Source: Spirochaeta thermophila DSM 6578 (lineage in GTDB: Bacteria > Spirochaetota > Spirochaetia > Winmispirales > Winmispiraceae). Taken from it: a stretch of DNA of 64,000 bases. Below, one piece after another: positions 1-17,537 of this stretch (its first letter is position 1; the number at the start of each line of letters is the position of its first letter). The position numbers were made by a program, and so were the translations under genes. The notes beneath the pieces were generated by a model. The model made no database searches. It worked only from the letters and a program-made list of their open reading frames with translations, and had not been told where the DNA came from. The DNA lies in NCBI RefSeq assembly GCF_000184345.1, contig NC_017583.1, positions 868,001 through 932,000 on the forward strand. The letters run 5' to 3'.

Positions 1-444
1 CCCGTGGTACATGTAGTAGCGGCCGTTGAGTTTCACCACTGAGGGAGCCCAGGTATAGGCCTCTGCATCAGAGGAGAATCCGAGCCACTCCTTCATCTCC
101 TCGTCCCACATGCCGAGGGCCGGTTCAGGCAGGCATTCCCAGTGTACGAGGTCCTTCGATCGACGGACCTGGACGCCTCCTTGCCAGGTGTTTCCAATGC
201 TTGCATCGGTGGAGAACACATAGAAGGTGCCGTCATCGTCCTGGAATAGTTCGGGGTCGTGGACGTTCAAAGGTCCCCACGTCGTGGGATCGTAGATGTC
301 GATGGAACGTGTGTACTTTTCTGTGATTGCAGGATCTTCTCCGCCATCCACAGGAGTGTCCGTGGGTGAGTATTCACTCCCCACTCGGCATGAGAGAAGA
401 AGGATGACATACCATGTAGTAAGAAAAAAGGTGTGCTTTACCAT
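1..444 (-). CDS. GH43-type glycoside hydrolase lipoprotein (5' part only)
   Basis: The gene reads off the left edge of the window; the first 148 codons are visible. Residues 1-19 form a lipoprotein signal ending in LLLSC, so the enzyme is probably anchored outside the inner membrane. The stretch VHDPELFQDDDGTFYVF (about residues 61-77) is the first blade of a five-bladed propeller glycosidase of family GH43, with D63 the expected catalytic base, and APSVVKLNGRYYMYHG is the next blade. Family members are arabinanases, xylosidases or arabinofuranosidases. The ATG has no Shine-Dalgarno sequence and lies 9 bases after the stop of the IS256-type transposase on the same strand, so the native promoter and leader have probably been replaced. 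Exact substrate cannot be told. Confidence 0.8.
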   Translation of the reverse strand, partial: MVKHTFFLTTWYVILLLSCRVGSEYSPTDTPVDGGEDPAITEKYTRSIDIYDPTTWGPLNVHDPELFQDDDGTFYVFSTDASIGNTWQGGVQVRRSKDLVHWECLPEPALGMWDEEMKEWLGFSSDAEAYTWAPSVVKLNGRYYMYHG

Positions 445-452
445 AGGGATTG

Positions 453-1697
453 TCAAGGGGGAGTGTTGAAATTGAGCTGGAGCTGATAAGGGGTGCGTCT
501 CCCCACCTCTTGTATCACCTGCATGCCCACCACGTAGAGGCCTACCACCTCATCTGCATGGGCATGGCTCATATACCCAGGATACCTCCGTAGAAAGCTT
601 CTCATGTGCCGAAACATGTTCTCCGCAAGGTTGCTCGTCCTCACCTTCTCCTTCCACTCATAGGGTAACTCCAGATAGGAGAAAAGCCGGTCCTTCCGCC
701 ACAGGAGGGAGGCCGTCATCCGGGGAGCCTTCGCCGCCCACTTCTTCACGAATGCCTCCAACGCACGTGCTGCGTCCTCCTTCCCTCCTGCCTCAAAGAG
801 CTTCCAGTACTCCGCTCGAAAAGCTCGCCTCTCCTTCTGGAGGTCTGCGTTCTTCCCCTTCCGTTCCCCCATGTCCTGCAGGAGCTTCTGCTCAAGCGTA
901 CCCTGCAGGTGCCAGAGGCATACCTGCTTCTTCGCCTCAGGATACACCGTCTCCACGGCCTGCCGGATCCCCTCAGCCTCATCGGCCACCACCAGCTCCA
1001 CCTCATGAAGCCCTCGCTCATAGAGCCTGGTAAGGAGTCGCTCGTAGCTCGCCTGGTCCTCCTGCTCCGCAACGACCCAGTCGAGGAGCTCATGAGATCC
1101 GTCCTCCTTCACCCCCACGGCACTCAGGACAACCAGCTTCTTCTGACCCCTCCCACGCCTCTTTGCCCACACTCCATCCAGCACAAGGGCCTTCACTCCT
1201 CTAAGGGACCTCCTCCGCCACTGCTCCTTCTCCTCACGAAGACGCTTTATGAGCCGCAGGAGTGTCTGCGGGTGAGCCTCGCCTATCCCCAGCTCCCGTA
1301 ACAGGATGGCCCACGTCCGCGCGCTCATCCCTCCCACATACCCGAGAAGGAGCTGCTCGGCGAGGGCCACGAGCCTCTGCTCATAGGCGACCAGCTTCAC
1401 CTCCTTCCCCCCGCCGGTGCGGATGCGGGGCACGCGTACATCCTCGATCGGCCCCCAGGGGGTCTGCACGGTCTTCCACTTTCTGTAGCCGTACCGGTAG
1501 TACGGTGCCTTCTCAGCCTCCCCTCGTGCATATCGTGGTCGTCCTACTGCCTCCTCTCTCAGCGTCTCAAGGAGGTGTTCCAGGTACGTCTTGTAGGTGT
1601 GGCGCACCTCCTCCCGGAGTTGGGCCTCTACTTGCTTCATCAGAGCAGAGAGGGTATACTGTGTTTCAGTCAATGCGCGTGTGTTACCACGCTTCAT
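453..1697 (-). CDS. IS256-family (mutator-type) transposase
   Basis: A 414-residue transposase that catalyses cut/copy-and-paste movement of the surrounding element. DDE-type acidic residues are visible in VLDGVW (about residue 173), VVADEAEG (about 240) and SNLAENMFRHMRSF (about 360), and VCLWHLQGTLE matches the conserved block between the second D and E of the mutator family. Length is normal for IS256 (about 400). The ATG is preceded by AAGGAGGAG at good spacing. The reading frame looks intact. It continues through the left inverted repeat and stops at 453, in flanking DNA 8 bases beyond the repeat tip, so its last residues are set by the insertion site. Confidence 0.93.
   Translation of the reverse strand: MKRGNTRALTETQYTLSALMKQVEAQLREEVRHTYKTYLEHLLETLREEAVGRPRYARGEAEKAPYYRYGYRKWKTVQTPWGPIEDVRVPRIRTGGGKEVKLVAYEQRLVALAEQLLLGYVGGMSARTWAILLRELGIGEAHPQTLLRLIKRLREEKEQWRRRSLRGVKALVLDGVWAKRRGRGQKKLVVLSAVGVKEDGSHELLDWVVAEQEDQASYERLLTRLYERGLHEVELVVADEAEGIRQAVETVYPEAKKQVCLWHLQGTLEQKLLQDMGERKGKNADLQKERRAFRAEYWKLFEAGGKEDAARALEAFVKKWAAKAPRMTASLLWRKDRLFSYLELPYEWKEKVRTSNLAENMFRHMRSFLRRYPGYMSHAHADEVVGLYVVGMQVIQEVGRRTPYQLQLNFNTPP
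461..503. repeat. Left terminal inverted repeat of the IS256-family element
   Basis: Matches the inverted right end at 1734-1776 with a perfect 10-base tip, then GATAAGGGG and TCTCCC in the same order. The 3' end of the transposase gene lies inside this repeat. Confidence 0.8.
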
Positions 1698-1733
1698 GGG
1701 GTATCTCCTCCTTGAAAAAAGGATTAGTGTGGT

Positions 1734-1776
1734 GGGAGATACCCCTTATCTTTTTTCCCCGCCTTTTTCAACACTC
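1734..1776. repeat. Right terminal inverted repeat of the IS256-family element
   Basis: Inverted partner of 461-503; lies 37 bases upstream of the transposase start and therefore overlaps its promoter region. Confidence 0.8.
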
Positions 1777-1832
1777 GATGTTACAGTCCCTTTACCATAA
1801 AGTACGCCCCATTGCAGCCTGTTGAGGGAAAA

Positions 1833-1857
1833 CCCCTGCCCCGGGGTGGGGCAGGGG
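1833..1857 (-). terminator. Rho-independent terminator of the LamG-porin-LamG operon
   Basis: Ten-pair GC stem (CCCCTGCCCC with GGGGCAGGGG) and five-base loop, followed on the minus strand by TTTTCCC. It lies 14 bases past the stop of the last gene of the operon. Confidence 0.75.
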
Positions 1858-1870
1858 GTGAGGAGGGAAC

Positions 1871-2608
1871 TTATCGTACAGGGATACCCGACTGCATGAT
1901 GGCCTTGATCTGTTGGTCCGTGTATGCCGCGTCGGCGATGAGGATCTCGTCCATCTTTCCCACGAAGAGCGGATCGGGCCAGTTGCTCGCACCTATGTAG
2001 AGTCCCTTCTTTTCTACATGAGAAGGAAGGAGTCCCGTATAACCGGATGCCACGCGCTTACCGTCGATGTACATGACCATCTCTCTCCCGTTCACTGTGA
2101 TGGCCAGGTGTACCCATTCACCCGTAGGAAGGGCAGGTCCGAGCAGTTTCACGCTACCAGATGGATGAAAGATGTCACACCTCATCACACCTTCCACGCC
2201 GCTGAACCCGAACCACATGTCGGCGGTGGCGCCGTCACCGAAATCGAATATCCTGGCCCAGGGAGGCCATGCCTCGGCATTCACCCAGGCGAGGAATGAC
2301 CACTCTTTACCCTCCAGGACATCGGGTTTGAGTTCGATATACGTCTGGGTCCCATCGAATACGAGCGCTTTCCCGAACTTTCCTTCGGTGGTCGCCGGTT
2401 TACCCCTGATGAGCGCGTCCAGTCCGTTCCCTGAATCGTCTTTCAGGGTATCTCCCTCGATATGGTCCATGGTGTAGATAGCCCTCGCATGGAGGTCGAA
2501 ATCCACCGTAAGGGGTGCTCCTTTCTTTTCCATCGAGGCACATCCCGCAAGAGTGAGGATGAGGACGAGTACTCTCCCCACCACTTTGGTTACGCTCGAA
2601 CTATTCAT
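1871..2608 (-). CDS. LamG/concanavalin-like domain lipoprotein (downstream copy)
   Basis: A 245-residue predicted lipoprotein: hydrophobic signal with lipobox LTLAGC, then one LamG/ConA-like beta-sandwich running nearly to the C-terminus. The opening AIYTMDHIEGDTLKDDSGNG and the ending MDEILIADAAYTDQQIKAIM are the usual edges of this fold, which binds glycans or proteins and has no catalytic residues of its own. The start at 2608 is chosen because GGAGGAGAC lies just upstream; an in-frame ATG at 2671 has no such site. It is the last gene of a three-gene operon with an outer-membrane barrel and another LamG lipoprotein, so a surface or periplasmic glycan-binding role is likely. Substrate unknown. 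Confidence 0.8.
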   Translation of the reverse strand: MNSSSVTKVVGRVLVLILTLAGCASMEKKGAPLTVDFDLHARAIYTMDHIEGDTLKDDSGNGLDALIRGKPATTEGKFGKALVFDGTQTYIELKPDVLEGKEWSFLAWVNAEAWPPWARIFDFGDGATADMWFGFSGVEGVMRCDIFHPSGSVKLLGPALPTGEWVHLAITVNGREMVMYIDGKRVASGYTGLLPSHVEKKGLYIGASNWPDPLFVGKMDEILIADAAYTDQQIKAIMQSGIPVR

Positions 2609-2641
2609 AGGTCTCCTCCACGATATGTGGTTCTTTATGGT

Positions 2642-2671
2642 GTGTCCCCCGTTCAGAGGAACAGGGGACAC
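2642..2671 (-). other. Intercistronic stem-loop between porin-like gene and LamG gene
   Basis: GTGTCCCC and GTTC pair with GAAC and GGGGACAC around an AGAG loop, giving a 12-pair stem with one internal mismatch. No T-run follows on the minus strand, so this looks like an mRNA-stabilising or processing hairpin rather than a terminator. Confidence 0.6.
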
Positions 2672-2681
2672 CTTTGTCTAT

Positions 2682-3971
2682 TCAGAACCAGAAGGCGACA
2701 TTGAGGGGTACGTAATGGGAGATGGCCTTCACCGATGTCTTAGATTCGTAATAGTTGATGTGCATCTGATACCCCAGTTGTACGTATCCGTTGGAGAGAT
2801 TTTTCTTTATGAACGGGAAGACCCCGCCGCCCATGGCCATTCCGGACGTTCCATCCGTGGGATTGGCAGGCACGTATGCGGCATCGATGTTGGTGGAGAA
2901 TCCTAGATCATCGCTGTCGCCGCTCATCATGTTTCCCACTTGGCCGGAAGAGTCCGACATGTAGGTGAAGTTCCCTCTGAGTCCTACCTGGACTCCAGGG
3001 AGGGGCAGGTCGTAGAGCGCGTCGAGCACGACTCTGTCAAGGAGAATCTCTTGAGCGTTGTCATGGAACTCGGTCGCGTAGGCGAATCTGTTGCCAAGGG
3101 CAATGCGGAGAGATGAGATCGGTCGATATGCTCCGGAGACGTTGATATTGTGCTTCATTCCTTCTGTAGCTGTTCGGTACTGGAAGTCGTAACCTGCGGC
3201 GAGATCGAAACCCGATCCGAGGAAGTTGAATCCCTCAGCGCTCAGATAGGCCTCTCTCACCACGTCGTCGTCTCCCTTGTAATCGGAAGCGGAGTACCAC
3301 AGTCCGTGGTAATACCCGGCTTTGAGAGTGACACCCATGGGGAGACTGTACCTCATGTTGATCTTGAACTGGTCTACCAGGTTCTGCCAATAGTTGTTGG
3401 CCGGCATGGATCCCCAGCCGTCGTTGGTACTCCAGGCTCGTATCGGTACCCCAACGAGAAGCGAAAACCCATCGAGCATGTAGGGCTTGATCTCGAGCCC
3501 GGTGAAGTAGGGGCCTACGTCCCGATCGGCCACGTTGTGCGCGTAGATGAACCCCCATGCGAGGTCATTGGTGACGTATCCGAAGTGCTGTTCCTCGAAC
3601 TTACCGGTGAGGAGGTCGACCTGATTGTTGAGAAGGTTTATCCGTACGTTACCCTGATAGAAGGGAACGTCATCGCCATAGAGATCGTACCAGGTGTCGA
3701 GATCGTTGCCGAGACGTATCCCGAGGACGAAGTGGATATTCTGGGAGTCCATGAACATGTTCACTTCGGTGCGTCCGCCGTACCACGAACCGAATCCGGC
3801 TCCGTATTCGAACTGTTCCCAGTCTTCACTCCCGGTCTGTGTGGCATAGGTGGTGAGGAGGTAGTTGGAATAGTCCGCATATCCGTGGAACATCACCTGT
3901 TGAGCGGCGAGGATACCTCCTGCACATGCCACAATGAGTGCTACTCCAAAAATCCGTAATGCCTTCATCAT
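2682..3971 (-). CDS. Outer-membrane beta-barrel protein, porin-like
   Basis: A 429-residue exported protein. A signal peptide ends near GGILAAQQ, and the mature part has no long hydrophobic helices but many alternating aromatic/polar strands and Tyr/Trp/Asp-rich loops. The last residues VPLNVAFWF end in Phe, the signature recognised by the BAM machinery in outer-membrane proteins. This indicates a barrel of roughly 16-18 strands. Two ATG codons (3971, 3968) follow ACAGGAGGAACG; either can be the start. It lies between two LamG lipoprotein genes and near a GH43 gene, which suggests an oligosaccharide-specific pore. No known porin family was recognised with confidence. Confidence 0.75.
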   Translation of the reverse strand: MMKALRIFGVALIVACAGGILAAQQVMFHGYADYSNYLLTTYATQTGSEDWEQFEYGAGFGSWYGGRTEVNMFMDSQNIHFVLGIRLGNDLDTWYDLYGDDVPFYQGNVRINLLNNQVDLLTGKFEEQHFGYVTNDLAWGFIYAHNVADRDVGPYFTGLEIKPYMLDGFSLLVGVPIRAWSTNDGWGSMPANNYWQNLVDQFKINMRYSLPMGVTLKAGYYHGLWYSASDYKGDDDVVREAYLSAEGFNFLGSGFDLAAGYDFQYRTATEGMKHNINVSGAYRPISSLRIALGNRFAYATEFHDNAQEILLDRVVLDALYDLPLPGVQVGLRGNFTYMSDSSGQVGNMMSGDSDDLGFSTNIDAAYVPANPTDGTSGMAMGGGVFPFIKKNLSNGYVQLGYQMHINYYESKTSVKAISHYVPLNVAFWF

Positions 3972-3999
3972 ACGTTCCTCCTGTTGGATTCTCTTCTTG

Positions 4000-4788
4000 T
4001 CAAGGCAGGATTCCTGCATAGAGGTCGCTCACCTCCGAGGCGCTGAGGGCCCTGTCGTAGATCACTACGTCATCGAGGATCGCTCCCTGAGCCTGCCAGG
4101 TATCCTGTCCGAACATGATGGATACAGTGGCGGCGGTGAAGTCCTCATATGCGGTATCGTAGGTGCCTTGCTCTTCACCGTTGATGTAGAGTGTCGCGAC
4201 ACCAGAAGAATCCATGGTCTCCGTGACATGGAACCATTCCCCGGCCGATGGGAGGGTCGTGAATATGTCACCCCAGTCGTTAGCCAGATCGCTGCGGTTT
4301 CGGGCGTAGAAACTCGTATCAGAGTTGCTGCCATGACTCACAAACCCTTCCCACGTGCCCCCGCTGTCCTTGAATATCATGTGAGCGATGGCTCCCCAGC
4401 TCGTATTCCAGGTGATCACCTTGGCCCAGTAGGAAATGGTGAAGCTCTTGCCTACCAGGTTGTCGGGGAGAGTGAGATACACATAGCCCAGGGTGTTGTC
4501 GGGGTTCTCCAGATAGAGGGATGTGTTTCTATAGCCTGTGATGAACGAGTATGAGGAAGGAGAGCTTCCACCTATGGTGGCGTCGTTACTGTTTCCCGAA
4601 TCATCCTCGAGAGTGTTCTCGAATTGTAGTACCACCACTGCTGTGGAATTGGTGAGATCGAGAGGTGTGGTTGTGACTGGATTGTCTTGAGAGGCTTCCA
4701 CCTCTTCCCTCCCGATGGTTGGCTCACCGCAGGCCAGTATCATGGTCGCGATGACAGGAATGAACGCGCTTTTCATCACTCCTTTCAT
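4000..4788 (-). CDS. LamG/concanavalin-like domain lipoprotein (upstream copy)
   Basis: A 262-residue predicted lipoprotein with lipobox MILAC, a Thr/Ser/Asp-rich linker and a single LamG-like beta-sandwich (VVVLQFENTLEDDSGNSNDA at the start; ILDDVVIYDRALSASEVSDL at the end). It has the same architecture as the other LamG lipoprotein of this operon but only the fold edges look alike, so the pair may bind different glycans. The ATG follows AGGAGGTCGGAC. First gene of the operon, 28 bases before the porin-like gene. An IS1595-type element ends 28 bases upstream of the start, leaving little room for a native promoter. Confidence 0.8.
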   Translation of the reverse strand: MKGVMKSAFIPVIATMILACGEPTIGREEVEASQDNPVTTTPLDLTNSTAVVVLQFENTLEDDSGNSNDATIGGSSPSSYSFITGYRNTSLYLENPDNTLGYVYLTLPDNLVGKSFTISYWAKVITWNTSWGAIAHMIFKDSGGTWEGFVSHGSNSDTSFYARNRSDLANDWGDIFTTLPSAGEWFHVTETMDSSGVATLYINGEEQGTYDTAYEDFTAATVSIMFGQDTWQAQGAILDDVVIYDRALSASEVSDLYAGILP

Positions 4789-4816
4789 GTCCGACCTCCT
4801 AACCGTAATATTTGAT

Positions 4817-4840
4817 GGTGATTACCATTTTTGAGCCACC
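4817..4840. repeat. Left inverted repeat of the IS1595-family element
   Basis: GGTGATTACCATTTTTGAGC followed by CACC; pairs with 5718-5741 with one single-base shift and one mismatch. Confidence 0.8.
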
Positions 4841-4875
4841 TGTGGTATAATACCGAAGAGAGAGGTGGCACGGAT

Positions 4876-5736
4876 ATGGACGTCGTAAGTCTTTCAACAC
4901 TTGCAAGCGATAGAGAGAAAACGGTCTCCTATCTGAGAGAGAAAGGTCTCCTCGTCACGTACACCCGGTGTCCCTTCTGTGGAAGTGAGCATATAGGCGA
5001 GGTGAGACGAGAGAAGTACAAGTGCTACCAGTGCAGGAAAGAGTGGAGCATACGACGAGGGAGCATCTTCGAGGGGATGAAGCTCTCCTGGGAGAAGATC
5101 CTGTGGGCAATGAAGCTCTTTGAGATGGAAGTTACCGCCCACAAGGCGGCTTTGCAGTTACGGCTCTCCTATGAGGTGACGCTGAGGCTCTACACATTGT
5201 TTCGGAAGGCGATATGGGTCCACACCCAGAAGGAGGGGAAGAGCCTGCTCGAAGGTGAAGTAGAGATGGACGAAAGTTATTTTGGAGGAAAGAGAAAGGG
5301 GAAGAGGGGGAGAGGGGCGGCAGGGAAGATTCCTGTGTTTGGGATTCTTGAGCGAGGGGGAAAAGTGCAGGTGGAAGTGGTGGAGCAGGTAAGTGCGGAG
5401 GAGCTTGTACGACTGGCAGTGGCCAAAGTGAAGCGGGGGTCGCTTGTGTATACCGACCGGTTCAAGAGCTATGATGGGCTTGTGAGCTATGGATTCAGGC
5501 ACAAGCGGATTGATCACGGGAAGCGATTTGCGAATGGGAAAGTGTACATCAATGGGATAGAGGGGTTTTGGAGTTATGCGAAAGGGCGGCTGCTCCAGCA
5601 TCACGGGGTGAGTGTAGAACGTTTTCCGCTGTACTTGAAAGAATTGGAGTGGCGGTATAATCATAGGGAGGAGGATCTATTCGAGCTTCTGCTGGAGGTA
5701 CTTAGAGAGTACTCCCGGGTGGCAAATAATGGATAA
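4876..5736 (+). CDS. IS1595-family transposase
   Basis: A 286-residue DDE transposase. N-terminal zinc ribbon CPFCGSEH...CYQC (about residues 31-53), then the catalytic blocks EMDESYFGGKRKGKRG, VYTDRFKSYDGL and NGIEGFWSYAKGRL, which is the ISXO2/IS1595 pattern. Length is normal and no frameshift is seen, so it may be active. The start at 4876 is preferred (AGAGAGGTGGCACGGAT upstream); an in-frame ATG at 4831 lies inside the left inverted repeat. The gene ends within the right inverted repeat. Confidence 0.93.
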   Translation: MDVVSLSTLASDREKTVSYLREKGLLVTYTRCPFCGSEHIGEVRREKYKCYQCRKEWSIRRGSIFEGMKLSWEKILWAMKLFEMEVTAHKAALQLRLSYEVTLRLYTLFRKAIWVHTQKEGKSLLEGEVEMDESYFGGKRKGKRGRGAAGKIPVFGILERGGKVQVEVVEQVSAEELVRLAVAKVKRGSLVYTDRFKSYDGLVSYGFRHKRIDHGKRFANGKVYINGIEGFWSYAKGRLLQHHGVSVERFPLYLKELEWRYNHREEDLFELLLEVLREYSRVANNG

Positions 5737-5741
5737 TCACC
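5718..5741. repeat. Right inverted repeat of the IS1595-family element
   Basis: Inverted copy of 4817-4840. It contains the last codons of the transposase. Confidence 0.8.
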
Positions 5742-6112
5742 TTTTCTTTTTCAGACAATATGCAGCAGGTATTCCTCAAGATTTTTTGGATGCGGCACGA
5801 ATGGATGGGGTACATGAGTATGGTATCTTCTTCAAAATCGGGATGCCTCTCATGCGTCCCGCCTATGCCGCAATGGGTATCCTTGTTGGACTCAATTCGT
5901 GGAACAGCTTCGTGTGGCCTCTGATCGTGTTGCGGACAGGAGACAAATTCACCTTGCCCATAGGGTTGAACACTCTCCTTACCCCGTATGGTAACAATTA
6001 TGATATGCTGATCGCCGGAGCTTCGGGCGCGGTCCTTCCCATGCTTGTGCTTTTCTTCTTCTTTCAGAAATATTTTGTCTCGGGGCTCATGGCAGGGGGC
6101 TTGAAAGGTTAG
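5742..6112 (+). pseudogene. C-terminal remnant of a CUT1-type sugar ABC permease (MalG/YcjP-like)
   Basis: About 123 codons remain of a permease that is normally about 280. The fragment opens within the EAA loop (RQYAAGIPQDFLDAARMDG, then IGMPLMRPA), the segment that contacts the ATPase, and ends with the typical last helix QKYFVSGLMAGGLKG. It begins directly at the IS1595 right end, and nothing upstream encodes the missing five-helix N-terminal part. A nominal ATG at 5729 lies in the inverted repeat. It is almost certainly non-functional and shows that a carbohydrate ABC operon was lost here. Confidence 0.88.
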
Positions 6113-6120
6113 GGAAGCAC

Positions 6121-7062
6121 CTAGTGCTTGTGGTTCTTGAAATAGAGCCTCAAGACGACTCCCTGGTCGTAGTTACCGAAGCCCCGTCCGAAGATGTTCA
6201 CCCCTCCGGGATGGGAAGCTTCTTCCTTGACTCCCACCTTCACCCTGATGGAGTGGTGTTTCGAAATATCGAGATCGCTGAGGGTAATGTCGGAGACCTT
6301 CACCCCGTCGATATAGGCTCCCGATTCGGTGATGCTCCAGTTCTTGAGCAGGCCGTACTGGGATCCCTCCAGCTTCCACCATACGGGGGTATATTTCCCC
6401 CGCTTGTCGCCGAAGTCTCCCGGACATTCCCAGGTTCCTATCTCTTCGTTGTTGATCCATACCGTGATGTCTGAGGGCCACTGTTTGTTCGTGCCGGGTA
6501 TCTCGGAGGAGAGTTCCATACTCACTTCGAGGCTCTGGAGCGGCTCTTTCCGGTAGAGGCTGTTGTTCGGAAATTGATATTCCACCCATCCGGTCTCGAA
6601 CCACAGGAGGGCGGCTTTCGCTCTCTCGGGAAGGAGGAAGGAGTCCGGCACATCGAGATAGCCAATGATGCTTTCCGAGGAGCACAGGCCGCACGGTGGC
6701 GTCACGTGGAAATTGGTATAGAGGCCTATGGGCATTTCCACTTCTATGGTGTTGTCCTCTTCAGGCTTCTTTTCCGTGATGAACTGGACCATGATTTCCT
6801 CATAGCGGGTGCGGCAGAGCTTCTGATTCCCCTTCTTGCCGTTCACTATCTCGGTTTCGATGAGTCCCGCCTTTTCCAGGATGGCGATATTGGTCGCCAC
6901 GGTGGATTGTGGGAGCTTGAGACGCTCGGCGATCTGATTCACATTCAGGGTTTCGGTGGTCAGCAGGTTGAGGATGTTGATCCGTATCTCCGAAGAAAGC
7001 GCCTTGAGGATGCGGGCATCTTCGTAACTGTTGATGAGCAAGAATTTTTCACTTCTCTCCAT
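6121..7062 (-). CDS. ArsR-like HTH transcriptional regulator with beta-rich C-terminal domain
   Basis: A 313-residue predicted regulator. Residues about 15-80 form a winged helix (ILKALSSEIRINILNLL, then IAERLKLPQSTVATNIAILE as the recognition region). The remaining 200 residues are unlike simple ArsR proteins: a CxxC pair (PPCGLC), a segment WFETGWVEYQFPN and many short beta strands, suggesting a ligand-binding sandwich. I recall similar two-part proteins beside carbohydrate transporters, so a sugar-responsive regulator of the divergent oligosaccharide ABC operon or of the lost CUT1 transporter is inferred. There is no Shine-Dalgarno sequence; a strong promoter sits so close that the mRNA may be leaderless. 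Confidence 0.78.
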   Translation of the reverse strand: MERSEKFLLINSYEDARILKALSSEIRINILNLLTTETLNVNQIAERLKLPQSTVATNIAILEKAGLIETEIVNGKKGNQKLCRTRYEEIMVQFITEKKPEEDNTIEVEMPIGLYTNFHVTPPCGLCSSESIIGYLDVPDSFLLPERAKAALLWFETGWVEYQFPNNSLYRKEPLQSLEVSMELSSEIPGTNKQWPSDITVWINNEEIGTWECPGDFGDKRGKYTPVWWKLEGSQYGLLKNWSITESGAYIDGVKVSDITLSDLDISKHHSIRVKVGVKEEASHPGGVNIFGRGFGNYDQGVVLRLYFKNHKH

Positions 7063-7205: not shown

Positions 7206-7252
7206 AGGGAAGACGGCTTGAGGAAGGAGGCGGGAGAATGGCTGTGTTTCCA

Positions 7253-7269
7253 GGAACATGTGGTGTTCC
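7253..7269 (+). other. Small leader stem-loop before the oligosaccharide-binding protein gene
   Basis: GGAACA-TGTGG-TGTTCC forms a six-pair hairpin 25 bases before the start codon. It may be a structural leader element or an operator. Confidence 0.35.
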
Positions 7270-7294
7270 CATATATTTTTTCAGGAGGGTGATG

Positions 7295-9043
7295 ATGAAA
7301 AAACTCTTTCTTGTATTCCTGTTGCTGACGGTGATTGGTACCGTCTGGGCGGAAGGCGGCAAGGAGACAGGCTCGGCAGGTGTCTCCTCTCTTCCCCGCA
7401 AGGAGACCCTCTATGTGGGTGGTCTTCAGTGGGGTCCGCCTCAGAACTTCAATCCTCTTTCCACACAGGCTTCGTTCCCTCTCAACAACGGATGGCGAAT
7501 GCCTCTGCTCTATGAGACTCTCTTCCTCTACAACCAGCTGGACAACAGTCTCGAGCCTCACATCGGTCTCTCATACGAGTGGGTTGATGATCTCACCTTA
7601 CGGATACAACTGCGGAAGGGGATTCACTTCAACGACGGCTCGCCTCTCACTGCCGAAGATGTGGCCTATAGTTACCTGTTGGGTGAGAAGTATCCCGTGC
7701 CTTGGAGTGCAACGATGACCCATATAAAGGAAGTCGTTGCAGCGGACGACTACACGGTCCTCATCCGTATGAAGCCCGAGAATCCCAACAGGCTCTATGT
7801 GTTGGACAGCCTCGGAAACGTATACGTGCTCCCCAGCGATGTGTGGAGTGAAATCGAAAAGAAGTACGACTACGATGGGACGAAGATCATTCAAGAATTC
7901 AATGCTCACCCCATCGCTTCGGGCCCCTACAAGATCGCCTTCTACGATGATACGAGGATCGTGCTCGAGCGGGACGACAACTACTGGGGCAAGGCAGTAT
8001 TCGGGAAACTCCCTGCACCGAAATACATTGCCCATCTCATCTACAAATCCAACGAGGCGAGTTCCAACGCCTTCAGACAGGGGCAGATCGATGTGAACCA
8101 GCAGTTCATCCCCAAGGTGTGGACGCTGTGGGAAAAGGGGGCGCCGTTCAAGACCTATCTCAGGAAACCTCCGTATTATATCCCGGGAAGTATCCCGAGC
8201 CTGTTCTTCAACATGACCAAGAAGGGACTCGATGTGCCCGAGGTGAGAAGGGCCCTCGCGATGTGCATCGATTACGCCAAGGTGGTCGATGTGGCGATGA
8301 GCGGCTATTCCACCATCGTGCGACCGGGTCTCATGCTGCCCGTCTACCATGAGCAGGAACTCATCGACACGAGGACACTCGAGTCGGTGTCCTACAGTTT
8401 CGACGTGGATGCGGCGAACGCCCTCCTGGATTCCATCGGTGCAAAGCCCGGGCCTGATGGCATACGGGTCCTCCCCGACGGAACCAGACTGGGACCGTGG
8501 GAGGCCTCGTGTCCCTACGGCTGGTCGGATTGGAACGCCACGCTCGAGATCGTGGCCCAGTCGGCCCGCAAGATCGGGATAGAGATACGAACCAAGTTTC
8601 CTGAATTCCCTGTCTGGCTCAACGATGTCCAGAACGGATACTTCGATATCGCCATGTGGCTCAGTACGAACCCTGGTATGGCCCAGCCGTGGGATCGATT
8701 CAGGGCCTTTCTGGATTCGAGGAATCTTCCTCCCATCGGCAAACCCGTTACCGCCAACTACAACTACGGCCGTTACAAGAATGAGCGGGTGAACGAGCTG
8801 CTTTCTCTTATACCTCCGGTGACAGATGAGAACACGTTGAGAGAACTCTATACAGAGCTCAACCTGATCTTCATCAGAGACCTCCCACAAATTCCCCTCA
8901 TGTATAGACCCTCTGCATTCTACACAGTATACGAGGGAGTATGGACGGGTTTCCCTGATGAGCAGAACAATCCCTACAATATCCCCCCCACTCCCATTTC
9001 CGGTGCATTCGTGAAGGCGCTCTACTACATACAGGCGAAATAG
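7295..9043 (+). CDS. Family-5 extracellular solute-binding protein, probable oligosaccharide binder
   Basis: A 582-residue periplasmic binding protein for an Opp/Dpp-class ABC importer. The signal peptide ends near TVWA and the mature protein starts EGGKETG. QLRKGIHFNDGSPLTAEDVAY (in part) is the family-5 signature near residue 110. In thermophilic saccharolytic bacteria such proteins often bind cello-, manno- or xylo-oligosaccharides instead of peptides; NFNPLSTQASFPLNNGW resembles those sugar binders. Beside GH3 glucosidases this makes a beta-glucan or xylan oligosaccharide the likely ligand (inference). The second of two adjacent ATGs is chosen for spacing from AGGAGGG. First gene of a five-gene operon. 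Confidence 0.88.
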   Translation: MKKLFLVFLLLTVIGTVWAEGGKETGSAGVSSLPRKETLYVGGLQWGPPQNFNPLSTQASFPLNNGWRMPLLYETLFLYNQLDNSLEPHIGLSYEWVDDLTLRIQLRKGIHFNDGSPLTAEDVAYSYLLGEKYPVPWSATMTHIKEVVAADDYTVLIRMKPENPNRLYVLDSLGNVYVLPSDVWSEIEKKYDYDGTKIIQEFNAHPIASGPYKIAFYDDTRIVLERDDNYWGKAVFGKLPAPKYIAHLIYKSNEASSNAFRQGQIDVNQQFIPKVWTLWEKGAPFKTYLRKPPYYIPGSIPSLFFNMTKKGLDVPEVRRALAMCIDYAKVVDVAMSGYSTIVRPGLMLPVYHEQELIDTRTLESVSYSFDVDAANALLDSIGAKPGPDGIRVLPDGTRLGPWEASCPYGWSDWNATLEIVAQSARKIGIEIRTKFPEFPVWLNDVQNGYFDIAMWLSTNPGMAQPWDRFRAFLDSRNLPPIGKPVTANYNYGRYKNERVNELLSLIPPVTDENTLRELYTELNLIFIRDLPQIPLMYRPSAFYTVYEGVWTGFPDEQNNPYNIPPTPISGAFVKALYYIQAK

Positions 9044-9106
9044 TGGATATGGGGCAGGCACATCGTGCCTGCCCCTCTTACTACATCCACAGAGAGGGGG
9101 AAACGC

Positions 9107-10117
9107 ATGCGACATTACCTGCGGTATTTTGGGAAGAAGCTGGGCTGGACGTTCCTCACCCTCGTGGTGGCGGTGACGCTCAACTTCTTCCTCCCACGGA
9201 TGGTCCCGGGAAATCCGGTCGATGCAATAGTAACCGACCTCGTACAAGGGATTTCGGATGAAAACAGAGTGAAGGAGATCTATGAGACCTTCAATAGTGA
9301 GTTCGGGGTGGATAAGCCGCTCTGGCACCAGTACCTGATCTACGTACGGAACCTCCTCAGAGGTGATCTAGGCACATCATTCGGTCAGTATCCGAAGAAG
9401 GTGAAGGATATACTCAGAAATGCCATCCCCTGGACCGTGGGGCTTCAACTTCCTGCAATTTTGGTGGGCTGGATACTGGGTAACGTCCTGGGGGCCCTTG
9501 CCGCCTATCGCCGCAAGCTTTTCGACAAGATATTCATGCCTCTATCGCTCGCCATAAGTTCCTTCCCGTTCTTCGTGATGGCCTTACTCATGCTCTACCT
9601 GTTCGGCATGACCCTGGGATGGTTTCCCATAGGAGGAGCCTATGCCTTCGATGTCCTCCCATCCCTCTCGTGGCGGTTCATAGGATCGGTCTTATATCAC
9701 TATGCCCTGCCGTTCCTCTCCATCGTCATAGTCACCATAGGAACGCAGGCCATAGGGATGCGATCGATGGCCATCTATGAGCTCAATTCGGACTACGTGC
9801 TCTACAGCAAACTCCTGGGACTAGAGGACAAAAAGGTGGTTCGGTACGTGTTTCGGAATGCAATGCTTCCTCAGATCACCGGCCTCGCCCTTTCCCTTGG
9901 AACAATGGTGGCGGGGGCTCTCATCGCCGAGATCGTGTTCAACTATCCCGGGATAGGGACCTATATGTTCTCTGCGATCAGACAGCTCGACTATCCTCTC
10001 ATCTCGGGGTGCACCCTCCTCGTAACGGTGAGTGTGCTCGTGGCCAACTTCGCCATAGAGGTGGTGTACGGATTCCTCGATCCACGTATCAAGATGGCTC
10101 AGCTGGAGGATAAGTGA
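9107..10117 (+). CDS. ABC transporter permease, DppB/OppB-like
   Basis: A 336-residue inner-membrane permease with six predicted helices: an N-terminal helix WTFLTLVVAVTLNFFLPRMV leads into a long periplasmic loop, as in DppB. PGNPVDAI and the EAA loop with DKKVVRYVFRNAMLPQITG place it in the oligopeptide/oligosaccharide class. It should form the channel together with the next gene product. The start at 9107 follows GAGAGGGGG; an ATG at 9065 has no ribosome site. It is separated from the following permease by one base. Confidence 0.9.
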   Translation: MRHYLRYFGKKLGWTFLTLVVAVTLNFFLPRMVPGNPVDAIVTDLVQGISDENRVKEIYETFNSEFGVDKPLWHQYLIYVRNLLRGDLGTSFGQYPKKVKDILRNAIPWTVGLQLPAILVGWILGNVLGALAAYRRKLFDKIFMPLSLAISSFPFFVMALLMLYLFGMTLGWFPIGGAYAFDVLPSLSWRFIGSVLYHYALPFLSIVIVTIGTQAIGMRSMAIYELNSDYVLYSKLLGLEDKKVVRYVFRNAMLPQITGLALSLGTMVAGALIAEIVFNYPGIGTYMFSAIRQLDYPLISGCTLLVTVSVLVANFAIEVVYGFLDPRIKMAQLEDK

Positions 10118-10118
10118 G

Positions 10119-10955
10119 ATGAAAGGTGCAACCAGAGTGCTCATGCGATCGCCGAAGTTCCTCATCGGCGTCGCTCTATTGGTGATGGTAGGAGGATTCG
10201 TCCTCATATACCCGTTCGTGGATATCCGGGATCCGTTCGAGATGGTGGGGCTCAGCTATGAGCCTCCTTCCAAGGATTTCCCCCTCGGGACGGACAACTT
10301 CGGGCGCGATGTCCTGCTCGAACTCGCATATGGGACGAGATCGTCTCTGTACGTGGGAATTCTCGCAGGGGGGATCGCATTGTGTATCGGCGTGGTCATA
10401 GGGCTCCTCGCCGGCTATCTCGGCGGTTTCTGGGACAATATCCTCACCACGGTGACCAACATGTTCATCGTGATACCCTCGTTCATGATTCTCATCCTGG
10501 TTTCGATAGGCCTCAACAGTCGGAGTCTCCTGATTGTGGGGGTGATCATAGGGTGTACCACGTGGCCGTGGACCGCCCGGGCGGTGAGGGCCCAGACTGC
10601 CTCGTTGCGATTGAGGGACCATGTCCATATTGCGCGCATCTCGGGCTATGGAGTGATGAGGATCATCGTCACGCAGATACTCCCTTATATCGCTTCCTAT
10701 GTATTCATGGCCTTCATCCTCCAGACCGCGAGCGGGATACTGGCAGAGGCGAGTATCTCCATGCTCGGCCTGGGTCCCTACAACACGATTTCACTGGGGA
10801 CGATGCTGAACTGGGCCATCATGTTCGAGGCCATGGGTGCCGGGGCGTGGTGGGCGTTCATTCCTCCAGCCCTCCTCATCGCTCTTTTCACCTTTGCCCT
10901 CTTTCTCATCAACAGTGGACTGGATGAGATCTTCAATCCTAAGATCAGGAGATAA
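10119..10955 (+). CDS. ABC transporter permease, DppC/OppC-like
   Basis: A 278-residue partner permease. The N-terminal cytoplasmic segment and first helix (FLIGVALLVMVGGFVLIYPF) precede FPLGTDNFGRDVL, the hallmark motif of DppC-type subunits, followed by five more helices. The conserved EAA segment is ISGYGVMRIIVTQILPYIAS. It is slightly short compared with DppC (about 300) but complete. The ribosome site GGAGGAT lies at the end of the preceding gene, so translation is probably coupled. Confidence 0.9.
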   Translation: MKGATRVLMRSPKFLIGVALLVMVGGFVLIYPFVDIRDPFEMVGLSYEPPSKDFPLGTDNFGRDVLLELAYGTRSSLYVGILAGGIALCIGVVIGLLAGYLGGFWDNILTTVTNMFIVIPSFMILILVSIGLNSRSLLIVGVIIGCTTWPWTARAVRAQTASLRLRDHVHIARISGYGVMRIIVTQILPYIASYVFMAFILQTASGILAEASISMLGLGPYNTISLGTMLNWAIMFEAMGAGAWWAFIPPALLIALFTFALFLINSGLDEIFNPKIRR

Positions 10956-10961
10956 GCGCTC

Positions 10962-11975
10962 ATGGACAGTAAACTGCTCGCCGTGGAAGATCTCCACACA
11001 TACTACAGGACCAGGGATGGAGAACATGTGCATGCCGTCTCGGGGGTCTCGTTCGAACTGGAGGAGGGGAGAGTTCTCGGTATCGCGGGGGAATCGGGGT
11101 GCGGGAAATCCACCCTCGCGCTCAGTCTGATGGGGTTCTACTTCCCCCCTCTCTACTACAAGAGCGGAGTGATCGCCATCCGAGGGGTGGACATCATGAA
11201 GCTCGAGTACGAGAAGTTGAGGGTAGACTATCTGGGTAAGGAGATATCCTACATTCCTCAGGCCGCGATGAACGCCCTGAACCCCACCCGGAAGATAGGC
11301 GACTTCGTGGTGGATGTGGTGCAGGTGCACAGACCGTCCCTGACCGAGAAGGAGATACTGACGATGGCGGCCGAGAGGTTCGAGTCTCTCAACCTTCCCA
11401 GTCGCATTTTGAGGGCCTTTCCAACGGAGCTTTCCGGAGGGATGAAACAGCGCACGGTGATCGCGATCTCCACTCTCCTCGACCCCAAGATCCTCATCGC
11501 CGACGAGCCCACCTCTGCACTCGACGTCTCTTCCCAGAAGGCGGTCATCCGGATGCTCAGGCTGCTCATGAGAGAGCGCGTGATCAAGGCCATGATCTTC
11601 ATCACCCATGAGCTTCCACTCCTCTACCACGTGGCGGACGACATCGCCGTGATGTACGCCGGGCAGCTGGTGGAGAAGGGGACGGCCCGGGAGGTGATAT
11701 TCGATCCCCTTCATCCCTATTCCCACGCCCTCATGGGTTCCATCCTGGTGCCGGACGAGGAGTTCATGAGTTCCTCCCGCACGATTCGCACGATTCCGGG
11801 TGCTCCGCCGAACCTCAAGGAGGAGATAAGGGGATGCCGGTTCGCCGACAGGTGCCCGTACGCCTTTGACGCGTGCAGGGAACATGCGGTGGCGGAGCGG
11901 CCCGTAGGAAAGAGGATGTACAGATGTCTCATCGATGTAGAAGATCTCAAGGAGAGGTATGTACATGGGGAATGA
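10962..11975 (+). CDS. ABC transporter ATPase, DppD/OppD-like
   Basis: A 337-residue ATPase. Walker [10 protein letters not shown] lies near residue 43, signature LSGGMKQR near 157 and Walker [13 protein letters not shown] near 177, followed by the H-loop [10 protein letters not shown]. The C-terminal extension with [15 protein letters not shown] is the cysteine-rich oligopeptide/dipeptide transporter tail, which in several relatives holds an iron-sulfur cluster. It should act as a heterodimer with the next gene product. It overlaps that gene by 17 bases. Confidence 0.92.
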
Positions 11976-12762
11976 ATACGTGCTCGAAGGGGTGGATCTC
12001 ACCCGATATTTCGGTATAGGGCGACTCCGCTTCGCGGCCGTGGATCACGTGACTATCGGCTTTCGGGAAGGAGAGATCGTCTCCATTGTGGGGGAGAGTG
12101 GGAGCGGAAAGACCACCCTGGCCAAGATATTCCTGGGACTCCTCAGGCCGAGCTCCGGTGAGGTGCGCTACAGAGGAGAGGTGTTGCGGTTGCGAGGCCA
12201 GCGGGAGCGAAGGGCCTACTGGAGCGGGGTGCAGGCCATCTTTCAGGATCCCTTCGCCTCGTTCAACCAGTTCTTCAGAGTGGACAGGTTCCTCCAGGAC
12301 TGTCTCAAGGTGGCGGGTATTCAGGCCTCAGAACAAGAGGCGCGCAGGATCAAGGAGGAGGCGTGTTCGTTCGTGAACCTCCCCTATCATGAGATCTACA
12401 ACAAATACCCGTTCGAGCTCTCGGGCGGCCAGATGCAGCGTCTCATGATCGCCCGGGTCTTCATCATCAAACCCAGTGTACTGATCGCCGATGAGCCCAC
12501 GTCCATGATAGACGCCTGCTCCCGTTCGACGATCCTCGACATGTTGCTCTCCCTCCGGAAGGAACGCGGGATGACCATCGTGTTCATCACGCACGATCTG
12601 GGGCTCGCCTACTATGTGAGCGATCGGATCGCCATCATGCACAGAGGAAAGATCTGCGAGGAGGGTGAGGCAAAGCGAGTGATAGAGGATCCTCAGCACG
12701 AATACACGAGAAGCCTCCTCGCCGATGTGCCGAGACTCATGGCCGAGTGGAGTCTCGAGTAA
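11959..12762 (+). CDS. ABC transporter ATPase, DppF/OppF-like
   Basis: A 267-residue ATPase with Walker [10 protein letters not shown] (near residue 45), signature LSGGQMQR (near 155), Walker [13 protein letters not shown] and H-loop [10 protein letters not shown]. Unlike many DppF proteins it lacks the C-terminal cysteine extension, which only its partner carries. ATG codons at 11959 and 11965 both follow AAGGAGAGG. Last gene of the transporter operon; it ends 3 bases from the convergent MFS gene. Confidence 0.92.
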
Positions 12763-14154: not shown

Positions 14155-14168
14155 GTACACTGTTGTAC
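14155..14168. promoter_or_regulatory. Inverted repeat upstream of the exported GH3 gene
   Basis: GTACA-CTGT-TGTAC, 21 bases before the start codon; a possible operator. The rest of 14040-14189 shows no clear promoter or gene. Confidence 0.35.
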
Positions 14169-14189
14169 ACCTTTTACGAGGGAGGTTGT

Positions 14190-16496
14190 ATGAAAAGGGT
14201 ATTGTGCTTTTTCGTATGTGTGATGGCCCTCAGTACCTCGAGCCTCTGGGGGGCGGGAGGAAAGGAACACACGTCCTCCGCTCCTGTGGTCTTTCCCTAT
14301 GAGGACCCATCACTTCCGTTGGATGAGAGGGCCAGGGATCTGGTCTCCCGTATGAGTCTTGAGGAAAAGGTATACTTCGTTGTGGGGACCGGCATGGGGA
14401 ATGTGGCGTTTGCGCCTTCCATAATGGGAACGGACAGGATCGTCCCGGGAGCGGCAGGGACCACGTTCCCTCTCCTCCACTTCGGGATCCCTGCAATGGT
14501 GATGGCGGATGGACCTGCGGGGGTGCGTATCAGCCCTGTGAGAGAGGGGGAGGAAGAGAAGACCTACTATTGCACCGCGTTCCCTATCGCTCGGATGCTC
14601 GCTTCATCGTGGGATACATCTCTCCTGGAGGAAGTGGGTACGGCCATGGGTGAGGAAGCCCTCGCCTACGGGGTGGATATGATCCTGGCTCCCGGCATGA
14701 ACATCCACCGACATCCTCTGGGGGGGAGGAACTTCGAGTACTATTCTGAGGATCCGCTCATCACCGGAAAGATGGCGGCAGCATTCGTACGGGGCGTGCA
14801 ATCCCAGGGGATAGGGGCCTGTCTCAAACACTACGCGGCGAACAACCAGGAGACGAACCGTATGTCCATCGACACGGTGGTTTCGGAGAAGGCCCTTCGG
14901 GAGATCTATCTCAGGGGCTTCGAGATTGCGGTGAAGGAGGGGCAGCCCTGGGCCGTGATGTCCGCCTACAACAAGGTGAACGGGCTCTACTGCAGCGAGC
15001 ACCATTGGCTCCTCACAGAAGTGCTCCGGAACGAGTGGGGGTTCTCGGGACTCGTGATGACCGATTGGTTCGCAGGGAAGGACCCTGTGGCTCAGATGAA
15101 GGCGGGGAACGACCTCCTCATGCCGGGTACGCCCTTCCAGCGAGCTTCTCTCCTGGCGGCGGTGAAGGAGGGAGGTTTGGATGAGGAAGTGCTGGATCGG
15201 AACGCGGAGCGGGTGGCCCGTATCGTTCTGGGAAGTGCCTCGGCACGTGGTGTGGAACGGCCAGAGGCGCCCGATCTCGAAGCCCACTCCTTGCTTGCCC
15301 GAAAGGCAGCGACCGAAGGGATGGTGCTTCTCAAGAACGAGGGGAACACCCTTCCGCTTGATCCTGGGCTTCGGGTAGCGGGTTTCGGGGTTTCGTTCTA
15401 TGATGTGATCATCGGAGGGACGGGAAGCGGTGATGTGAACGAGGCGTACCGCATCTCCCCTGCGGAAGGACTCACCGCAGCGGGCTATCAAGTGGATAGT
15501 GATCTGAAGGAGAGGTATCTGCACTACATAGAAGAGGCGAAAGCGAACCTCCCTCCGAAGAAGAACTGGTGGGAGCCGGAGAAGAGGATCGCAGAGTGGG
15601 ATCTTCCTGAGGAGATGGTGGATCTTCTCGCTTCCCGTACTGATGTGGCGCTCGTCACCATAGGGAGGATCTCAGGTGAGTTCGCCGACAGGAGCAGGGA
15701 GGAATTCTATCTCAGCAGCGAAGAGAAGTCCCTGTTACGGAAGGTCTCCAGTGCCTTTCATGCGAAAGGGAAGAAGGTGGTAGTCCTCCTCAACATCGGG
15801 GGGGTGATAAAAGTTGATGACTGGAGGGATCTCGTCGATGCGATCCTCCTGGTCTGGGAACCTGGACAGGAGGCAGGCCATGCAATCGCAGATGTGCTTT
15901 CGGGGCGCGTCAATCCTTCCGGGCGGCTCACCACCACTTTCCCGCTCGACTACGAGGATGTCCCCTCGAGTTCCTACTTTCCCGGAACCCCGATGGACAA
16001 CCCGGAACGTGTGGAGTATGGAGAAGGGGTCATGGTCGGATACCGGTATTTCGTCACCGACAACGTCCCGGTCGCGTATGAGTTCGGATACGGACTTTCG
16101 TATACGACGTTCGACCTGGCCCTTGCTGGGGTCGAAGGGGAGGTGACACGAGATGAGGAACTCCGGCTCCGGGTGGAGGTGACGAACACCGGAGATGTGC
16201 CGGGGAGAGAAGTCGTCCAGGTATACCTCGAGAGAGATCTTGTGGGTGACGAGCCGGCGAAGGTTCTGGTGGGATTCGCGAAGACAGAAATCCTCGAGCC
16301 GGGCGCCTCTGAACGTGTCGAGATCAGGATTCCCAGGGAATATCTGGCCGTCTTCGACGAGGGAGCGGATGCATGGATCATTCCCGCCGGCGACTACCGT
16401 CTCACGATCTCGAAGTCGTCCCTTATGGACGTAGGTTCTATACCTTTTTCCGTTGGACATAGGGTCCATGTGGCTGATGTGATTCCACTGGACTGA
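14190..16496 (+). CDS. GH3 beta-glycosidase with signal peptide
   Basis: A 768-residue exported glycoside hydrolase of family 3. A signal peptide (through LSTSSLWG) is followed by AGGKE. The TIM barrel holds ILAPGMNIHRHPLGGRNFEY and KHYAANNQETNR, with the nucleophile Asp in VMTDW (D292). Then come the (alpha/beta)6 sandwich and a C-terminal fibronectin III-like domain (YGLSYTTFDLAL onward). This full-length layout fits beta-glucosidases and beta-xylosidases acting on short oligosaccharides in the periplasm. The ATG follows GAGGGAGGTTGT. It is followed by a hairpin at 16507-16531. Substrate preference cannot be read from sequence. Confidence 0.9.
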   Translation: MKRVLCFFVCVMALSTSSLWGAGGKEHTSSAPVVFPYEDPSLPLDERARDLVSRMSLEEKVYFVVGTGMGNVAFAPSIMGTDRIVPGAAGTTFPLLHFGIPAMVMADGPAGVRISPVREGEEEKTYYCTAFPIARMLASSWDTSLLEEVGTAMGEEALAYGVDMILAPGMNIHRHPLGGRNFEYYSEDPLITGKMAAAFVRGVQSQGIGACLKHYAANNQETNRMSIDTVVSEKALREIYLRGFEIAVKEGQPWAVMSAYNKVNGLYCSEHHWLLTEVLRNEWGFSGLVMTDWFAGKDPVAQMKAGNDLLMPGTPFQRASLLAAVKEGGLDEEVLDRNAERVARIVLGSASARGVERPEAPDLEAHSLLARKAATEGMVLLKNEGNTLPLDPGLRVAGFGVSFYDVIIGGTGSGDVNEAYRISPAEGLTAAGYQVDSDLKERYLHYIEEAKANLPPKKNWWEPEKRIAEWDLPEEMVDLLASRTDVALVTIGRISGEFADRSREEFYLSSEEKSLLRKVSSAFHAKGKKVVVLLNIGGVIKVDDWRDLVDAILLVWEPGQEAGHAIADVLSGRVNPSGRLTTTFPLDYEDVPSSSYFPGTPMDNPERVEYGEGVMVGYRYFVTDNVPVAYEFGYGLSYTTFDLALAGVEGEVTRDEELRLRVEVTNTGDVPGREVVQVYLERDLVGDEPAKVLVGFAKTEILEPGASERVEIRIPREYLAVFDEGADAWIIPAGDYRLTISKSSLMDVGSIPFSVGHRVHVADVIPLD

Positions 16497-16506
16497 GATC
16501 GATGTG

Positions 16507-16531
16507 GGGAGGGGGCGATCCGCCCCTTCCC
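16507..16531 (+). terminator. Stem-loop after the exported GH3 gene
   Basis: Eleven-pair GC-rich stem with an ATC loop, 10 bases past the stop. There is no strong T-run, so termination may be partial and the AraC gene may be co-transcribed. Confidence 0.5.
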
Positions 16532-16556
16532 TTCGCCATTGTTGGTGGGTGAGAGC

Positions 16557-17513
16557 ATGGAAGGTCTTTTCTACATAGAGAACGTGGAGTACAAGGAGCA
16601 CCTTCCGTTCAAGGTGTTCCTCCACAACGTGAGGGAGTGCGGATTCCATCTCCACAAGGAGTTGGAGATGCTTTTCGTGCTGGACGGGAGTATCCTGGTG
16701 CAGGTGGAGGGAAACCAGTACGTATGCGGGATCGACGACGTGGTACTGGTGCACGGCGAGGAGCTCCACTTCACCCATTCCATGGGTGATCAGAATATCG
16801 TCCTCGTGTTCCAGATGGATGTGCTCTATGCCGATCAGTGGGAACCAGGGTTCTCGCAGATGCGATTCCTCTGTAACTCCACGCTCTCGAGAGAGGGGAA
16901 GGACCAAGAGAAGTATCGAAGGTTGAGGACGGAACTCGCCTCCCTCATGGCCATGTCCCGGAAGACAGAGGAGGGTGCACGCCTCAGGATGATGGAAAGG
17001 GTGTTTCGCATCCTCTCGCTCCTCGTCTCGGAGTTCAGGGTGGGGGAGAGGGAGATGCAGGTGGACATGTCGCAGATCGAGGAGAGCATGAGATACTTCT
17101 CGAGAGTGGCGCGCATCCTCAAATACTTGGACACCCACTACATGGATCGTATCTCCCTTTCCGAACTCGCCGAGCGGGAAGGGGTGCATCCCAGCTACCT
17201 TTCCAGGTTTTTCCACGAGAAGGTAGGGCTTGCCTTCAAAGATTACCTGCAGATGGTACGTCTGCAGAAATCGTTGCGGGATCTCATCACGAGTTCCCGC
17301 ACCATCACGGAGATCGCGATGGACTATGGGTTTCCCAGTGTGAAGGCGTATGAGACGTCGTTCAGGAAGTTCTATGGATCGACCCCCTCTGCGTGGCGTT
17401 CCAGTACCATGGAGCGACTGGCCCCCCCGCCTCACTCTGTGTACAACCCCCTGTCCAGGAAGAAGGCGTTTCGTCTTCTCGAGCGGTATGTGTCCTCCGA
17501 AGAGGACCGATAA
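16557..17513 (+). CDS. AraC-family transcriptional regulator
   Basis: A 318-residue regulator. The N-terminal half is a cupin (HLHKELEMLFVLDGSILVQVEG) expected to bind a sugar or other small ligand. The C-terminal 100 residues hold two helix-turn-helix units (LSELAEREGVHPSYLSRFFH and ITEIAMDYGFPSVKAYETSF), the AraC/XylS signature. It lies 24 bases upstream of a GH3 gene and probably controls that gene and its neighbours. ATG at 16557 follows GGTGAGAGC; upstream in-frame TTG codons are less likely. Confidence 0.9.
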   Translation: MEGLFYIENVEYKEHLPFKVFLHNVRECGFHLHKELEMLFVLDGSILVQVEGNQYVCGIDDVVLVHGEELHFTHSMGDQNIVLVFQMDVLYADQWEPGFSQMRFLCNSTLSREGKDQEKYRRLRTELASLMAMSRKTEEGARLRMMERVFRILSLLVSEFRVGEREMQVDMSQIEESMRYFSRVARILKYLDTHYMDRISLSELAEREGVHPSYLSRFFHEKVGLAFKDYLQMVRLQKSLRDLITSSRTITEIAMDYGFPSVKAYETSFRKFYGSTPSAWRSSTMERLAPPPHSVYNPLSRKKAFRLLERYVSSEEDR

Positions 17514-17537
17514 GATAATTTTTCAAGGAGAGATACC

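Follow-up and report, generated by a model that had tools for sequence, protein, structure and literature searches.

A conserved lipoprotein–barrel module of spirochaetes, most likely for arabinan uptake without SusC/SusD

Introduction

Surface glycan uptake in the Bacteroidetes is served by SusC/SusD pairs. The outer-membrane passage of plant polysaccharides in spirochaetes from the rumen, the termite gut and hot environments is poorly known. A locus in Spirochaeta thermophila DSM 6578 resembles the SusC/SusD PULs of the Bacteroidota in that surface-type lipoproteins, a barrel and lipoprotein glycosidases are encoded together and a lipoprotein gene adjoins the barrel gene. The PULs encode SusD and a TonB plug, whereas the spirochaete locus has neither, and its barrel is porin-sized and plugless.

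Two other described systems share features with the locus. The ScrY and LamB (maltoporin) sugar porins give the highest TM-scores to the barrel model among the matches listed, and the barrel gene likewise lies in a sugar locus, but there is no detectable sequence similarity and the barrel genes are paired with lipoprotein genes. AbnA of Geobacillus stearothermophilus contains a related LamG domain and belongs with the GH43 enzymes of the same broad activity class; its binding domain lies inside the enzyme, while in the spirochaete it is a separate lipoprotein. The AbnA LamG domain (Domain4) binds arabinan with a Kd of 7.7–11.1 uM, and in the crystal of Domain4 arabinopentaose sits in the concave cleft (PMC9110388).

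The analysis described here supports the module as real and conserved, independent of SusCD and built around an undescribed barrel family; arabinan uptake is its most likely role. Searches of the open-access literature returned no description of this module. The locus offers a module that is defined, conserved and open to testing, in which an undescribed barrel family comes with named partners.

Layout of the locus

The window is the whole stretch of DNA that was analyzed, 64,000 nucleotides of the single contig (2,560,222 bases) that makes up the genome (NC_017583.1, positions 868,001 to 932,000). The sister genome, from the same genus, has 2,472,645 bases. On the minus strand, the gene order in the window is LamG1, barrel, LamG2, a terminator-like hairpin, an IS256 copy and the GH43a lipoprotein (Table 1). 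The preliminary description had two single-LamG lipoproteins flanking a barrel gene, with a GH43 lipoprotein on the same strand past an IS element, and all of these parts were confirmed. Lipoboxes can be read from the sequences of LamG2 (LAGC), LamG1 (ILAC) and GH43a (LLSC).

Table 1. Features of the lipoprotein–barrel locus and its surroundings; coordinates are those of the window unless prefixed
Feature	Position	Strand	Remarks
LamG1 lipoprotein, first gene of the probable unit	4000-4788	-	one LamG/ConA domain; lipobox Cys at residue 20
Outer-membrane beta-barrel (predicted)	2682-3971	-	429 aa; signal peptide; C-terminal Phe
LamG2 lipoprotein	1871-2608	-	one LamG/ConA domain; LAGC lipobox; LamG gene kept downstream of barrel
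Intrinsic-terminator-like hairpin	1833-1857	-	10 pairs, 9 G-C; loop 5; TTTT tail
IS256-family insertion	446-1790 (transposase 453-1697)	-	NF033543, 194.6 bits against a cut-off of 150; flanking 9-bp duplication TATGGTAAA
Target-site duplication copies	437-445 (carries GH43a ATG) and 1791-1799	-	
GH43a lipoprotein, arabinanase similarity	1-444, runs out of window; full gene L002:9798-11444	-	PF04616 and PF16369
IS1595-family element	about 4816-5741 (transposase 4831-5736)	+	abuts LamG1 5' end
ArsR-type regulator	6121-7062	-	HTH_5
Opp-type ABC transporter	7238-12762	+	binding protein 7238-9043, then permease and ATPase ORFs

The earlier picture of a LamG–barrel–LamG operon beside GH43 holds for the gene set but needs correction. 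Because a GC-rich hairpin with a TTTT tail, also seen in the sister, separates LamG2 from the IS and GH43 part, LamG1–barrel–LamG2 probably forms a single unit, with GH43 as a second unit or an attenuated one. The IS1595-family element had gone unmentioned.

Past GH43a and outside the window lie GH43b (with a lipobox) and, in convergent orientation, GH51b, GH51a and a dehydrogenase of AraM type. At the other end of the locus, the binding protein of the Opp-type transporter matches SBP_bac_5 (E 5.5e-61), and its permeases and ATPase were assigned by eye from ORF order. This transporter is the likely inner-membrane importer of oligosaccharides, and arabino-oligosaccharides would be its cargo. 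Two GH3-like glycosidase ORFs and an AraC-type regulator, also assigned by eye, follow the transporter at 14163-19220.

LamG lipoproteins and the target glycan

Both LamG proteins score well above the cut-off of 27.6 bits for Laminin_G_3 (PF13385): the two bit scores are 86.3 and 74.9. The E-values are 9.9e-21 for LamG1 and 3.1e-24 for LamG2. LamG domains are versatile. The top PDB match is 5HON, the AbnA LamG domain, for LamG1 (E 2.9e-9) as well as LamG2 (E 1.3e-10), a ranking that depends on which structures have been solved. LamG2 and AbnA have NWxDPxFxGxxDE in common, and a profile comparison of the LamG proteins with the AbnA LamG domain gave E 7.8e-20. At the level of sequence, both LamG proteins are related to the arabinan-binding Domain4 of Geobacillus AbnA. 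A reading of LamG1 as a toxin was rejected: its matches to clostridial neurotoxin receptor-binding domains fall below the Pfam cut-off and are weaker than the LamG and AbnA matches, and they arise because the ConA-like fold is common to both.

The full GH43a gene matches PF04616 (E 6.7e-31) and PF16369 (GH43_C; E 8.4e-17). For the 152 residues inside the window, the top NCBIfam models are arabinan endo-1,5-alpha-L-arabinosidases, at scores far below the cut-off. The neighbors are of an arabinan type: two GH43, two GH51 and the AraM-like dehydrogenase, with a GH127 and a third GH43 also present in the sister. Given the LamG match to AbnA Domain4 and the GH43, GH51 and (sister) GH127 neighbors, arabinan is more likely to be the target than xylan.

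The same uptake mechanism could instead serve another arabinose-containing glycan, such as arabinoxylan, arabinogalactan or beta-arabinosides, rather than pectic arabinan. Arabinoxylan is also a substrate of the GH43 and GH51 families, and GH127, which is found in the sister and in some Treponema loci, acts on beta-arabinofuranosides. Such a target seems rather unlikely when set against the GH43_C domain and best-scoring endo-arabinanase models of GH43a and the arabinanase domain that tops the LamG matches; no xylanase family was recognized in the locus stretches read.

The barrel

The barrel has no sequence relative in Pfam, NCBIfam or the PDB, including a PDB profile search, and none of 11 barrels matches the LamB sequence family in Pfam. 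An AF2 model of moderate confidence (pLDDT 69, pTM 0.68) has about 18–20 strands and no plug. A Foldseek search with this model leads to porins. The sugar porins ScrY and LamB give its highest TM-scores (0.52–0.56), with ScrY at 0.56 and maltoporin at 0.54 the highest among the listed matches, and values of 0.5–0.56 on a model of this confidence do not prove a sugar porin. The model suggests, with moderate confidence, an undescribed outer-membrane family that is porin-like.

When ranked by E-value, BpsOmp38 and similar general porins also come out high in the Foldseek search, which would fit a general diffusion porin that sits in a glycan locus by chance. The distribution of the family makes this improbable. 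Of 393 sampled genomes from the phylum, only 9 had a full-length match in a profile search, with one or two copies each (tandem where there are two; single in the window genome) and nearly always in arabinan-type loci, a restriction that argues against a general porin.

A SusD-like lipoprotein (PF07980) was found in 0 of 14 genomes, with a positive Bacteroides control. The TonB plug (PF07715) is absent from the window genome and the sister, with positive control genomes; plug proteins are present in 10 related genomes, none of them the barrel. Because SusD and, in the window genome and its sister, the plug are both missing, uptake in this strain, as judged from gene content, cannot use SusCD. 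The earlier observation that SusC and SusD genes are lacking is thus borne out.

Lipoprotein–barrel pairing

Wherever the upstream side of a barrel gene could be read, it holds a lipoprotein gene (in locus L025, what remains of LamG1) at -1 to 58 nt; the exceptions to this survey were G648a, which is unclear, and G708, where the barrel lies at a contig end. The upstream lipoprotein is clearly LamG in two families only, and most Treponema examples have an unknown fold. The C-terminal parts of the Treponema lipoproteins differ (LamG, Big_3, unknown), and an HHalign comparison with LamG gave a probability of 42%, which is only suggestive. An AF2 model of one of them was discarded (pLDDT 37).

The start of these proteins is more uniform. 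The pattern C-x-[LMP]-[EQSDK]-[LIV] at the lipidated cysteine occurs in 18/18 Treponema barrel-upstream lipoproteins and in 0/22 of the remaining lipoproteins in those loci (Fisher p 9e-12, an optimistic value, as the sequences are related and also served to derive the pattern that was counted on them). A stricter DNA version, run on 7 whole genomes, had 3 of its 18 matches at a lipoprotein start, all three barrel-upstream. LamG1 begins differently from the Treponema motif, with CGEPTIGR in the window's genus and CGMPTIGR in L025. Because the motif separates the two sets of Treponema lipoproteins so fully, the upstream lipoprotein is a candidate partner of the barrel, and we infer that the motif stretch may dock it there.

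More speculatively, the upstream lipoprotein could dock via the residues that directly follow the lipidated cysteine and hold a variable glycan-binding domain over the channel. The pair would then be a counterpart of SusCD that does not need TonB and whose lids are exchangeable, an idea that is best regarded as tentative.

Conservation across genomes

The preliminary description had proposed conserved gene order in relatives as a check, and the order is kept across three families, in part in Treponema. The sister locus (L004) reads LamG1–barrel–LamG2–GH43a–GH43b without IS256. LamG1 is 97% and GH43a 95% identical to the sister's; dN/dS between the two strains is 0.09–0.27 across LamG1 (about 0.15), barrel (0.09), LamG2 and GH43a, which by this measure are under purifying selection. 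L025, from another family, has the order with identities of 71–73% for the barrel, 67% for LamG2, 67% for GH43a, 86% for GH43b and 68% for LamG1. Its LamG1 (10554-11321) has one in-frame stop, and the neighboring genes are intact.

The Treponema loci keep the lipoprotein–barrel pair; in most of them a LamG lipoprotein and GH43 come next, with GH43a at 25–46% identity. A search of one family gave further barrels in two genera, mostly the Treponema-type genus. A genome-contig scan with one short peptide pattern gave matches in Treponema only and says little on other phyla. Within the stretches read, 14 of 16 barrel loci have a GH43a relative, 13 have a LamG2 relative and 8 have the regulator, whose ArsR-type homologues in other families are 43–65% identical. 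Two of the 16 have no GH43a relative there, and one locus (L065) has no arabinan enzyme at all. The module occurs in cultured or named organisms, including Treponema zioleckii kT3, Treponema sp. JC4 and the sister strain with its uninterrupted copy. The conserved order, the restricted barrel and the absence of SusD and plug support the earlier proposal of a SusCD-independent glycan capture system, as far as comparative sequence evidence goes.

As a separate observation, Treponema often has two tandem barrels, each with its own upstream lipoprotein (L028, L029, L030, L066, L067). GH43b is 86% identical between L025 and L002, which belong to different families, while the barrel is 71–73% identical. 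This difference makes a lateral transfer of the locus between families possible.

A proposed uptake route

It is probable, on the gene content and the similarities above, that the locus encodes the outer-membrane part of arabinan utilization without SusC/SusD. The two LamG lipoproteins would bind arabinan at the cell surface, where they are presumably exposed, and the GH43 lipoproteins would cut it there. The resulting arabino-oligosaccharides would cross the outer membrane through the barrel, a putative TonB-independent, porin-like channel. Entry into the cytoplasm would probably be via the nearby Opp-type ABC transporter, and cytosolic GH51 arabinofuranosidases would finish the arabino-oligosaccharides. 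If true, a heat-loving spirochaete would take up the side chains of plant pectin by a route that needs none of the SusC/SusD machinery known from gut Bacteroidetes.

The LamG lipoproteins and the barrel might instead mainly attach the cell to the plant cell wall, with oligosaccharides using another porin. LamG or CBM-type lipoproteins would bind substrate wherever they are placed, and the barrel could be a mere anchor. However, the barrel model is porin-like and has no adhesin domain, and the tight barrel–lipoprotein pairing together with the nearby importer favors uptake, so attachment as the main role appears very improbable.

Insertion sequences and the state of the locus in this strain

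The IS256 copy had been described as inserted between the parts of the system, and comparison with the sister agrees: the site is empty in L004, near 13168, where TATGGTAAA is single, and the 9-bp sequence stands on both IS256 flanks in the window. In the sister a purine-rich stretch precedes the GH43a ATG; in the window the element lies between the two. IS256 thus splits the GH43a start codon from its predicted ribosome-binding site.

The LamG1 ATG of the sister is preceded, at a distance of 46 nt, by a promoter-like TTGACA-17-TACAAT. In the window, the IS1595 end is 27 nt upstream of the LamG1 ATG and the sister's promoter-like site is lost; a search of 1-6500 gave no such site on the minus strand. 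IS1595 has replaced what would be the upstream promoter region of the operon. The reading frames of the operon are intact in this strain. Because IS1595 took the promoter region and IS256 cut GH43a from its ribosome-binding site, the operon may have fallen silent in this strain or may depend on an IS promoter, and the system may be impaired, its expression lost or altered.

The sister carries GH43c and GH127 between the regulator and LamG1, and neither was found elsewhere in the window genome. The window strain lacks about 3.9 kb of the sister's DNA, including GH127 and a GH43 gene, which is consistent with an IS-associated deletion. The two ends of IS1595 carry no matching duplication, and the element borders on the C-terminal half of a MalG-type ABC permease (5729-6112). 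At 437-470, the IS256 end puts a TTGACA box beside the GH43a start codon.
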